DNA of 43,935 nucleotides from Oscillospiraceae bacterium (GTDB lineage: Bacteria > Bacillota > Clostridia > Oscillospirales > JAGBHD01): positions 1 through 43,935 of the forward strand of contig JAGBHD010000059.1 in NCBI GenBank assembly GCA_018110785.1, read 5' to 3'. Under the pieces are notes generated by a model. It saw nothing but the letters and a program-made list of their open reading frames with translations. It had not been told where the DNA came from and did no database searches. Each line of letters begins with the position of its first letter. Position 1 is the first letter of the stretch. Of the stretch, positions 1 to 3,885 are shown one piece after another. A program made the position numbers and the translations under genes.

Positions 1-951
1 CAAGCATCCATGCAAAAAATGCTTCAAAATGTTCATTATATTGGGAAGGTTGTTTGGAATCTGCGAAAAACAATTGAAATTGTTGAAGAAGGTGAAATTC
101 TAAAAACAAGACCAAAATCAAAAATTGGTGAATTTTTGGTCTATGAAGGCAGACATGAAGGCATTGTCCCACTTGAACTGTTTAATGCAGCGCAAGAAAA
201 AATGGGAAGAAATCACCGCGCAAAGCCAAAAACTAAAGTCAGAAATCCGCTTGCAAGCCTTCTGTGGTGTCAATGTGGAAGGGCAATGTCTTTGAGAACC
301 TACAAAAAAGATGGCAAAGAAAGAGCGCCTGCAAGATTGCTTTGTGATGGTCAAGCCCACTGTGGAACAGGTTCTTGTTTATATGAAGAAATGATTGAAA
401 GAATTGTTGATGTTTTGAAACAGTGCATTGAAGATTTTGAAATCCGCTTGCAGAATGATGAAGGCAATTCACTCAAACTTCATGCAAGGCTTGTAAAAAA
501 TCTTGAAAAGAAAATGAAAGACCTTCAGGCAAAAGAACTGGCGCAATGGGAACAGCAATCACATCCTGATCCATCACAAAGAATGCCAGCAGAAATTTTC
601 AAACAGTTGAATGAAAAACTGTTGAAGGAAAAAGAAGAAGTTCAACAGGCTTTGTGTGCGGCTTACGAATCTATGCCAGAACCAGTTGATTATGAAGAAA
701 AACTTGTAAAATTCAAAGATGCCCTTGAAGCATTGCAAAATCCTGATGTGGATGCAGCAACAAAAAACAGGCTGTTGAAAGCCTGTATTGAAAGAATTGA
801 CTATTCAAGGGAAAAGCCGCAAAGGATAAAAAGCCAACAAATAAAATATTATGATAAGGAATTAAAGAAAACGCGCCACAAATCACCATTGAAAACAGGC
901 GGAAACTGGACAAGCCCACCGATTGAAATTGATGTAAAACTGAAGGTGTAA
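1..951 (+). CDS. Large serine recombinase, C-terminal part (5' end outside window)
   Basis: The reading frame is open to the left edge (the codons before the first ATG at 10 read Q-A-S), so this is the C-terminal part of a longer protein. The visible 316 residues contain the end of the Recombinase domain (NVHYIGKVVWN and a GRHEGIVPLELF stretch), then a zinc-ribbon-like segment with CQCGRAM and two later cysteines (LLCDGQAHC), then a long charged coiled-coil of roughly residues 130-240. This order is typical of large serine integrases of phages and integrative elements. The catalytic resolvase domain must lie to the left. The gene converges on the truncated cotJC and stops about 25 bp before it, as expected for an integrase next to its own attachment site. 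Confidence 0.88.
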   Translation, partial: QASMQKMLQNVHYIGKVVWNLRKTIEIVEEGEILKTRPKSKIGEFLVYEGRHEGIVPLELFNAAQEKMGRNHRAKPKTKVRNPLASLLWCQCGRAMSLRTYKKDGKERAPARLLCDGQAHCGTGSCLYEEMIERIVDVLKQCIEDFEIRLQNDEGNSLKLHARLVKNLEKKMKDLQAKELAQWEQQSHPDPSQRMPAEIFKQLNEKLLKEKEEVQQALCAAYESMPEPVDYEEKLVKFKDALEALQNPDVDAATKNRLLKACIERIDYSREKPQRIKSQQIKYYDKELKKTRHKSPLKTGGNWTSPPIEIDVKLKV

Positions 952-985
952 TTTTTTTGCACCTTTCATTTCCATCATTGATGTG
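1..985. mobile_element. Right end of an integrated prophage or integrative element inside cotJC
   Basis: Inference from two directly visible facts: a serine recombinase gene ends at 951, and the cotJC reading frame entering from the right loses family similarity at about 975-990. Most of the element lies to the left of the window, so its size and cargo are unknown. The exact right boundary cannot be fixed without the other junction, because serine-integrase core identities are only a few bases long. Confidence 0.7.
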
Positions 986-1000
986 CAGGTTCCTCGGTTC
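970..1000. other. Candidate attachment-site junction (att) within cotJC codons
   Basis: Read leftward, the cotJC frame gives TDIGTEEPAHQ and then a stop. CotJC proteins normally read TDIGTEELAHLE here, so similarity is lost at about the histidine codon. The crossover is therefore probably within these roughly 30 bases. The placement is inferred. The partner junction to the left would be needed to define the shared core. Confidence 0.5.
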
Positions 1001-1184
1001 CAATGTCAGTAAGCAATCCTTTAACCTTCGAATCGGGGGCAGTGTATCGCTGACTTAAATAGCGAAGCGATGCCGCAGTTTCGCCGTCGGGACCGCCAAG
1101 CTGGCTTATAATAACCTTTGCCAAGGCGGGATTAGGATTTTTTATTTTAACCGGATATTGTAATTTTTTCTCATAAACCCACAT
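975..1184 (-). pseudogene. cotJC: Spore coat protein CotJC, N-terminal fragment interrupted by the element
   Basis: The 69-residue product begins MWVYEKKLQYP and contains KNPNPALAKVIISQLGGPDG, SLRYLSQRYT and LLTDIGTEE, which is the conserved start of CotJC, a manganese-catalase-family protein of the inner spore coat usually about 190 residues long. Only about the first third is present and the metal-binding four-helix body is missing. It starts 3 bp after the cotJB stop, in the usual cotJA-cotJB-cotJC order. The frame ends in PAHQ-stop where the recombinase-bearing DNA begins. Whether the gene is dead or is restored by excision during sporulation cannot be told from this window. Confidence 0.85.
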
Positions 1185-2552: not shown

Positions 2553-2657
2553 GTGTCTTGTTTAGACACCCTAAATATATCAGAAGAAGCTCCTATTGTC
2601 AATGCTTTTCCAAAAAATAGTTGACTTTTAGGATACAACAGTGTATTATTAAGACAT
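2553..2657. promoter_or_regulatory. Divergent promoters with two matching operators
   Basis: Minus strand: -35 TTGACA (2597-2602), 17 bp, -10 TATATT (2574-2579), driving the 68-aa gene. Plus strand: -35 TTGACT (2621-2626), 17 bp, -10 TATTAT (2644-2649), driving the repressor. Operator 1 is GTGTCT-TGTTT-AGACAC (2553-2569), a perfect 6-bp-arm inverted repeat at the minus-strand start site. Operator 2 (2641-2657) matches it at 13 of 17 positions and covers the plus-strand -10. This layout is typical of an autoregulated phage-type repressor. Confidence 0.75.
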
Positions 2658-2674
2658 CAAAGGGTGTGATTTAT

Positions 2675-3268
2675 ATGAATATCGGAGATAAAATAAGAGC
2701 CGCTCGAATAAATAAAAATTTAACCCAAGAGGAGCTGGGCGCCCTATTGGGTATTCAAAAATCTGCCGTTGCAAAATATGAAAACGGTAGGGTTGTTAAT
2801 ATTAAAATGGGAACTTTGCAGAAAATCTGTGAAGTGCTGGATATGAAAGCCTCCGAACTGATTTATGAAACCCTCGAATCCGAATCAGAGCTTCTCTCCC
2901 GATATCCGCTTTTTAAAGATAAGTCTTCCTCTGAGCTTTTGGTATCAGACGGCAGCGCCCAGCTAACAAAAAAGGAAGACTATCTTATTATAACTATTAA
3001 AGACAACAGTATGGCAGATGACCGAATTTTGCCTGGAGATGCCGTTTTTATAAAAAAACAGTTCACCGTTAATAACGGTGAACTAGCCGCTGTTTCAATA
3101 AATAATCAAGAGCCTATTATCAGAAGATTTTTCTATTACCCGAAAGAGGACAAGCTCGTTCTCAGCGCAGGAAACCGATTGGCTGAGCCTTTGGTATTCT
3201 TAAACGACGCTATAAACAATGTTAAAATCATAGGCAAGGCTATTTCTTTTCAAAGCAGAATCATATAA
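2675..3268 (+). CDS. XRE-S24 repressor (LexA/CI-like), probably not self-cleaving
   Basis: The protein has 197 residues. Residues 1-64 are an XRE helix-turn-helix (LTQEELGALLGIQKSAVAKYENG). Residues about 100-190 are an S24 peptidase-like fold containing the DNSM motif with Ser112 and the PGDAVFIKK strand. The usual catalytic lysine position (consensus VKRF) reads IRRF, giving Arg150, and no Ala-Gly or Cys-Gly cleavage dipeptide is visible in the linker. The ATG at 2675 was chosen over an upstream in-frame codon because AAAGGGTG precedes it and the promoter elements lie just upstream. It probably represses itself and the divergent 68-aa gene. Confidence 0.85.
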   Translation: MNIGDKIRAARINKNLTQEELGALLGIQKSAVAKYENGRVVNIKMGTLQKICEVLDMKASELIYETLESESELLSRYPLFKDKSSSELLVSDGSAQLTKKEDYLIITIKDNSMADDRILPGDAVFIKKQFTVNNGELAAVSINNQEPIIRRFFYYPKEDKLVLSAGNRLAEPLVFLNDAINNVKIIGKAISFQSRII

Positions 3269-3315
3269 AATCCAAAATTTACGCGCCTGCGTACACATAA
3301 TGAAATATATTGATA

Positions 3316-3348
3316 TACAATCTCCTTAAAAATATTTTTAAGGAGATT
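3316..3348 (+). promoter_or_regulatory. 30-bp perfect palindrome covering the Shine-Dalgarno of the next gene
   Basis: Bases 3319-3348 are a perfect palindrome with arms AATCTCCTTAAAAAT and its reverse complement. The right arm contains AAGGAG, the ribosome binding site of the small XRE gene at 3354. As RNA it would form a hairpin hiding that site. As DNA it could be an operator. A possible -10 TACAAT (3316-3321) overlaps the left edge. If that is the real promoter, transcripts would start inside the palindrome and the operator reading is favoured. Confidence 0.55.
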
Positions 3349-3353
3349 TATTT

Positions 3354-3593
3354 ATGAATAAAGAAAGTGTAGCATTATCAATTAAACAATTTCTTGATAA
3401 TATAGTTTATCTTAGAAAAAAATCAGGGCTTTCAAAAAAAGAAATGACAAAAATTCTCGGTATCAGTATAGGAACTCTTAACAAGATAGAAAAAGGGGAC
3501 ATCCCGCCTTTATTGAAAGCTGAGATTGTTTTTAATGTTTCAGATTATTTTAATATATCAACAGAAGATCTGTTCCGTAAATTATCTGATTAA
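3354..3593 (+). CDS. Small XRE-family DNA-binding protein
   Basis: This 79-residue protein consists almost entirely of one helix-turn-helix of XRE type: YLRKKSGLSKKEMTKILGIS, then GTLNKIEKG, then a C-terminal helix (DYFNISTEDLF). It has no effector domain. Such single-domain proteins act as repressors or partners of other regulators in mobile elements. The ATG is preceded by AAGGAG, which is itself part of a 30-bp perfect palindrome. It lies 85 bp downstream of the XRE-S24 gene on the same strand and may be its own unit. Confidence 0.8.
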   Translation: MNKESVALSIKQFLDNIVYLRKKSGLSKKEMTKILGISIGTLNKIEKGDIPPLLKAEIVFNVSDYFNISTEDLFRKLSD

Positions 3594-3608: not shown

Positions 3609-3637
3609 TTGAATTATTTTACACTATATGATAAAAT
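3609..3637 (+). promoter_or_regulatory. Promoter of the small hydrophobic peptide transcript
   Basis: -35 TTGAAT (3609-3614), 17 bp, -10 TAAAAT (3632-3637). The predicted start at about 3644 coincides with the first base of the long inverted repeat at 3645, which places the whole repeat arm at the 5' end of the transcript. Confidence 0.6.
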
Positions 3638-3705
3638 AATATGTGAAATAAGGCATACCTAAACGGTAGGCGGTTGGCCCTCTTTGGTATAAAGGGGGTG
3701 ATGCT

Positions 3706-3777
3706 ATGGAGTATTATTTCCTTTTAGTTTTAATACTTATTGTAGCCACAGGTTACATAACGAGCATAAAAAAATAA
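3706..3777 (+). CDS. Putative type I toxin, 23-residue hydrophobic peptide
   Basis: The reading frame is 23 codons long: MEYYF, then a hydrophobic run rich in L, I and V, then GYITSIKK. It is one membrane-spanning helix with a basic tail, as in holin-like or type I toxin peptides. The ribosome binding site AAAGGGGGTGAT is an almost complete match to the 16S rRNA end, so this tiny frame is probably translated. Promoter, 5'-3' pairing arms and a convergent antisense RNA surround it. It does not closely resemble Fst or TxpA in sequence. Assignment rests on architecture, so function is inferred. Confidence 0.65.
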   Translation: MEYYFLLVLILIVATGYITSIKK

Positions 3778-3850
3778 CCGCCCAACCCTGCAAAAGTTAG
3801 CGGTTATTCGCAACATTTCAGGCCAACCGTCTATCGGTGTGCCTTATTTC
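3768..3850 (-). ncRNA. Putative antisense antitoxin RNA (about 80 nt)
   Basis: A minus-strand promoter (TTGACA at 3880-3885, 17 bp, TATATT at 3857-3862) predicts a start near 3850. An intrinsic terminator follows: stem AATAACCGC/GCGGTTATT (3773-3781 with 3800-3808) and, reading leftward, a run of at least six T. The RNA would be complementary to the end of the peptide gene and the 3' half of its transcript. Antitoxin RNAs overlapping the toxin 3' end are known, for example RatA with txpA. No protein is encoded. Confidence 0.6.
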
Positions 3851-3856
3851 ATCTAT

Positions 3857-3885
3857 AATATAGCACATTGTCCCCTTGTTGTCAA
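3857..3885 (-). promoter_or_regulatory. Strong antisense promoter
   Basis: TTGACA (3880-3885), exactly 17 bp, TATATT (3857-3862) on the minus strand. No protein gene lies immediately downstream on this strand. The next element is the terminator at 3773-3808, which supports a short RNA product. Confidence 0.7.

Follow-up and report, generated by a model that had tools for sequence, protein, structure and literature searches.

Anatomy of the cassette

The stretch analyzed here (hereafter the window) comprises positions 1 to 43,935 of contig JAGBHD010000059.1 from the Oscillospiraceae bacterium assembly GCA_018110785.1. Within its Clostridia-type sequence, window positions 3609–3885 look like a self-contained type I toxin–antitoxin-like module of ~240 bases, as had been proposed in an initial annotation made from the sequence alone. 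The module, referred to as the cassette, is built around a short open reading frame (ORF) for a peptide of 23 amino acids (aa) and a ribosome-binding Shine-Dalgarno (SD) sequence, with the following features:

3609..3637, plus strand: toxin mRNA promoter, TTGAAT-17-TAAAAT, 9/12 consensus, with TG before the -10
3644..3850, plus strand: putative toxin mRNA, at least this extent; start from the -10 position, extent deduced from arm covariation and plus-strand wobbles
3645..3679, plus strand: 5' leader arm with the conserved module GGCGGTT(A/G)GCC; inverted-repeat and member alignment evidence
3677..3699, plus strand: local hairpin predicted to hide the ribosome-binding site, CCCUCUUU versus AAAGGGGG; -11.9 kcal/mol, recovered from the alignment
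3691..3700, plus strand: SD AAAGGGGGTG, ending 5 nucleotides (nt) before the ATG; duplex with the 16S 3' end, -18.0 kcal/mol
3706..3777, plus strand: candidate toxin ORF for the hydrophobic 23-aa peptide MEYYFLLVLILIVATGYITSIKK, then stop; frame conserved, with fewer nonsynonymous than synonymous changes per site (pN<pS) in homologues
3766..3850, minus strand: candidate antitoxin antisense RNA, about 84 nt; promoter, terminator and fold evidence
3773..3808, minus strand: antisense intrinsic terminator hairpin, 9-bp stem 3808-3800/3781-3773, with the peptide stop codon (3775-3777) inside
3821..3850, plus strand: 3' arm of the toxin mRNA, module GGC(T/C)AACCGTC, complement of the antisense 5' leader
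3857..3885, minus strand: antisense promoter, TTGACA-17-TATATT, 11/12 consensus, with TG before the -10

The inverted repeat enclosing the peptide gene consists of two pairs, 3636-3659/3836-3859 (24 nt, 83%) and 3664-3679/3821-3836 (16 nt, 88%), and the two inward-pointing promoters both predict a start at the same sequence, GAAATAAGGC, at about 3644/3645 on the plus strand and 3850 on the minus strand. The whole cassette measures ~240–280 bp, and the genome of origin carries one copy. With a grand average of hydropathy of +1.32 and a KK C-terminal end, the peptide is predicted to be of the kind expected of type I toxins, small and hydrophobic with one membrane helix and a charged C terminus. 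The minus-strand terminator stem lies in the end of the peptide gene and is followed on that strand by ATTTTTTTATG (seven T), a U-tract complementary to the AAA AAA lysine codons that precede the stop. These two codons therefore serve both genes. The terminator was not listed by a consensus scanner because its hairpin loop is longer than the scan allows. The overlap of the antisense and toxin genes at their 3' ends is present in the sequence, so that a predicted antisense transcript would overlap the toxin gene, as is characteristic of type I systems. These elements (peptide with a strong ribosome site, enclosing repeat, mirrored promoters and minus-strand terminator) had all been put forward in the initial annotation and were recovered here.

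Distribution of relatives and conservation of the RNA frame

A DNA search was positive for 13 of the 98 genomes examined from the order, the own genome being one of the 13. With a gapped pattern combining hairpin and right arm, 24 of 295 genomes of the order were positive as against 2 with a reversed control; at phylum level the same pattern was found in 9 of 399 genomes versus 6 with the control, a level close to background from which no prevalence was drawn. A stricter pattern applied to 84,980 species genomes returned at least 117 stretches and, among those listed, most were from Lachnospiraceae, Oscillospiraceae/Ruminococcaceae and other Clostridia; loci showing the hairpin pattern are present in the culturable Anaerotruncus sp. 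G3 and Hominisplanchenecus faecis. Seventeen viral contigs matched, including one (L186) encoding a closely similar peptide, MEYLAFIVIILIVATGYITSIKK, with the right arm and antisense promoter. A blastn search against plasmids and phages gave no match. Pattern matches at G000:C3:3620 and in Spirosoma, Moraxella, Hyphomonadaceae and Rikenellaceae appear to be accidental, as they lack an SD-led small peptide, and were set aside. In several places (G091:C12 894925-925337, G086:C20, L047, L063 and L121) cassettes with different peptides lie close together.

Among 112 de-duplicated candidates picked by the antisense promoter, both arm modules were found in 50 (hereafter members), with GGCGGTTAGCC in the leader and GGCTAACCGTC in the 3' arm. 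In 47 members picked by the arms alone, the antisense promoter scored 10–12/12 in 41, with shuffles giving 7–9; the plus promoter was on average weaker than the minus promoter in other members. Peptides of more than one type occur in this setting, namely another type under the hairpin pattern, MTIDSLIAVISLVLTAFGLGYAIGSNNTKK (the pattern alone being seen for that copy), and peptides of Hol_Tox (PF16935, putative holin-like toxin). The RNA frame is thus better conserved than the peptide payload. This would also fit a pair of regulatory RNAs that does not encode a working peptide, for example an attenuator or a dual small RNA acting in trans. Such a pair is very improbable, as an SD-led hydrophobic ORF of 20–35 aa ending at the hairpin stop was present in 45/50 members, mostly KK-ending, and frame 0 was open in 46/50, with a mean hydropathy of +1.29 vs -0.86 and 0.15 in the other frames.

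Within the group encoding 23-aa peptides, which share the consensus ME-Y...LIVATGYI-x-SIKK, pN was lower than pS over codons 1–20 in 102/105 pairs, indicating that these peptides are under coding selection as judged from substitution patterns. The initial annotation had made its proposal depend on conservation of the peptide frame among homologous repeats, and this was observed. It had also stated that the peptide does not match Fst, in agreement with the lack of any credible, above-chance match in Pfam and NCBIfam for any of 18 members of the group. A search of solved-structure sequences turned up nothing beyond weak matches to SecG helices (E about 0.5), and PHROGs only scattered weak matches. 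Apart from a chance snoRNA, Rfam scans gave no match at E<1 for the window, and no matching RNA family for 11 relatives, and no published description of this RNA frame was found among openly accessible papers. As far as those libraries go, the 23-aa peptide family is absent from Pfam/NCBIfam and its RNA frame from Rfam.

Folding, covariation and strand of the arms

Both predicted RNAs fold. The plus RNA (3644-3850, 207 nt) reached -82.1 kcal/mol (z -7.4, with 0/200 shuffles as good), and the mean z over 44 members was -7.3 with every member below -2; the antisense RNA (3850-3765) had a z of -3.3. In the predicted plus-RNA fold, the molecule is closed by the two arms and the SD is paired (unpaired probability 0.006), so that the toxin mRNA structure would hide its SD as is typical of type I systems.

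The arms covary. Across 47 aligned divergent copies, a 16-pair core was 91% paired and held 40 compensatory cells (shuffle mean 10, maximum 22), and slid-register controls of the core paired at only 23–47%. RNAalifold on 12 whole elements returned the 5'–3' stem, the SD hairpin and the terminator with a covarying inner stem, the paired substitutions in the latter being AAC/GTT, TGT/ACA, TTG/CAA, AAG/CTT and ACG/CGT. The strand that folds can be read from the wobbles, since every G-U pair in one strand corresponds to A opposite C, a mismatch, in the other. In the core of the 47 copies, 99 plus-strand G-U versus 20 A-C were counted, and in the longer arms 192 versus 70, with 40 members favoring plus and 3 minus, although the copies are related and these counts are non-independent events. 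The plus arm duplex was more stable than its minus counterpart in 43/47 members. This plus-strand excess points to folding of the toxin-mRNA strand, and hence to an mRNA that reads through the right arm and seals its 5' end to its 3' end, the sealing being what the initial annotation had suggested. It follows that the toxin mRNA would include the right arm and overlap the entire antisense RNA. The accompanying proposal that the antisense pairs with the 3' half of the mRNA therefore stands for the 3' overlap, with two amendments: the overlap with the peptide ORF is limited to its last codons, and the mRNA is implied to pass the antisense start.

An inverted repeat of this kind could also be a miniature inverted-repeat transposable element (MITE)-like mobile element, a DNA cruciform or a protein site, with the ORF incidental. 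The terminal inverted arms around a 200-bp body, found in many genomes and sometimes several times per genome, resemble a MITE. Neither a MITE nor a cruciform, however, requires arm covariation with plus-strand G-U pairs, and the single copy in the own genome, the coding selection on the ORF and the absence of a target-site duplication at the ends when looked for by eye make this explanation the least probable of those considered.

Returning to the RNAs, pairing of the antisense with the 3' arm was predicted to be stronger than that of the mRNA leader with the same arm, at -58.9 vs -50.2 kcal/mol in the window and, on average over 47 members, -62.7 vs -39.3 kcal/mol; antisense pairing is perfect by construction, so that the informative part is the retention of wobbles in the leader pairing. 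In all members the leader GGCGGTTA (module 1) could also pair with TAACCGCC (module 2), located at the stop codon. A 3'-trimmed window mRNA was predicted to use this leader:TAACCGCC pairing; it is near-invariant but shows no covariation for or against it, and is no more than a possible contact. In most relatives (L003, L028, L069, L099, L135 and others) an extra CCCTCT/AGAGGG pair lies between leader and SD, which is lacking in the window copy. This pair allows two alternative hairpins before the ribosome-binding site and may constitute a co-transcriptional folding switch.

Comparison with known systems

Several known type I systems share parts of this arrangement. Compared with bsrG/SR4, bsrE/SR5 and txpA/RatA of Bacillus subtilis prophages, the cassette differs in that the leaders of the antisense and of the toxin mRNA are nearly identical, in its ~240–280 bp size and in its 23-aa ATGYI peptide matching no model. 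In some bsrG/SR4 loci, the RNA part is reported to have been kept with the toxin exchanged for BsrE/H (PMC6562991), which provides a precedent for a conserved RNA frame with a changed payload. The par locus of plasmid pAD1 (Fst/RNA II) has inward promoters, an SD-hiding stem-loop, a sequestered mRNA 5' end and a U-turn terminator-loop contact (PMC7472228), all with counterparts in the predicted structure or proposed scheme here. However, par has direct repeats (DRa/DRb), a bidirectional terminator and antitoxin pairing at the SD, whereas the present cassette has inverted repeats, a clear terminator serving the antisense, with no U-tract after the hairpin on the plus strand in the window, and pairing at the 3' end. 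Membership of Fst/par was ruled out from the lack of the Fst signature and from the inverted rather than direct repeats (PMC7472228). Convergent type I systems of Clostridioides difficile (CD2517.1-RCd8 and others) encode toxins of 50–53 aa as opposed to 23 aa, and a review of C. difficile systems does not use the term inverted repeat or describe mirrored leader arms.

Likeness is also seen to Hol_Tox PF16935 loci, which have the same arms, a terminator hairpin at the stop codon and an antisense promoter; outside the order, clear arms were found with a generic aligner in 3–4/14 matches. Identity of the 23-aa group with Hol_Tox was rejected, no PF16935 profile match reaching the cut-off, and a profile comparison (12% identity, probability 67) between short hydrophobic sequences is too weak to argue for common descent. 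Because the RNA frame is shared with PF16935 loci, only the peptide family is unlisted and not the kind of system, so that the undescribed family suggested initially holds for the peptide in Pfam and NCBIfam and for the RNA in Rfam. With Hol_Tox and other peptides carried by the frame elsewhere, the window copy would thus be one cassette of a widespread modular system. One PF16935 locus (L202 1-218) lies near the gene for transfer-messenger RNA, a common phage attachment site.

The variety of unrelated-looking peptides in the RNA frame could also be expected if the antisense controlled a small membrane protein of non-toxin function, acting in regulation, envelope modification or prophage superinfection exclusion. 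The conserved ATGYI motif of the 23-aa group may point to a specific partner, and some copies adjoin genes for phage lysis or integrases, or are carried on viral contigs, the neighbors of the group being mixed and including an SPP1-type holin with a CHAP lysin, a serine recombinase and a tyrosine integrase. On the other hand, double control by a strong antisense and a hidden SD, together with a lysine-tailed single helix, is typical of type I toxins, and the same frame carries Hol_Tox, a family also matching in Bacillus subtilis. A non-toxin role is on balance unlikely, and the most probable of the alternatives.

Proposed mechanism

Taken together, the cassette is probably a type I toxin–antitoxin module of the Gram-positive convergent 3'-overlapping class (bsrG/SR4, txpA/RatA and par-like), a reading to which we give a probability of roughly 0.8 from sequence and comparative evidence. 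It is grounded in what was observed directly, namely the anatomy, the recurrence, the covariation and strand of the arms, and the coding selection. Several points weigh against it. The SD is predicted to be closed in every folded state; no intrinsic terminator is visible in the window after the right arm for the plus RNA; the wobble excess in the core comes mostly from two near-fixed columns, without which it is 36 vs 20; and nothing about the site, chromosomal and single-copy, points directly to a role in addiction.

In the proposed scheme we infer transcription, displacement, RNase III decay and toxicity as follows. From the plus promoter a toxin mRNA would be made in which the 5' leader and the 3' end form a helix of about 30 bp, and this closed form, with the hairpin at the ribosome-binding site, would keep the mRNA stable and poorly translated. 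The stronger minus promoter would yield a short antisense starting in the 3' arm and stopping at the terminator in the last ORF codons. The leaders of antisense and mRNA, being almost the same in sequence, would compete for the mRNA 3' arm. Since the antisense matches the mRNA 3' end perfectly, whereas the leader pairs there with conserved G-U wobbles, it could displace the leader. First contact may be a loop–loop interaction at the terminator hairpin. Antisense loops usually bear a YUNR motif, and one is found in the terminator loop of 47/50 members vs 67% in shuffles. The antisense:mRNA duplex would then be an RNase III substrate, as reported for B. subtilis type I systems (PMC6562991). Should antisense synthesis stop, the stable mRNA would give a single-helix, lysine-tailed membrane peptide and membrane damage.

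A broader reading is more tentative and somewhat short of even odds: that throughout Clostridia and their phages one conserved antisense-RNA frame with mirrored leaders has taken up, by exchange, many very small membrane peptides unrelated to one another, its antitoxin acting by leader mimicry and winning the 3' arm through the conserved wobbles of the mRNA.

Genomic surroundings and significance

Directly before the cassette (window 2621-3593) lie a gene for an S24/LexA-type helix-turn-helix (HTH) repressor and a second small HTH gene, resembling a prophage control region. Further upstream, at window 10-1184, a large serine recombinase gene truncated by the contig start has its 3' end 24 bp from a cotJC gene that breaks off after 69 codons and is followed by cotJB and cotJA. 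The assembly has no other Mn-catalase piece or serine recombinase, and the arrangement suggests that an element has inserted into a sporulation gene, with one of its ends lying here.

Protein similarity is a poor guide to type I systems, since their peptides are very small and change quickly. In the present case it is the RNA frame rather than the peptide that is conserved and can be searched for, which offers a way to list a large hidden set of small membrane peptides in gut Clostridia and in prophages. The wobble-weakened leader set against a perfectly matched antisense would further offer a clear, testable rule for how such antitoxins win.
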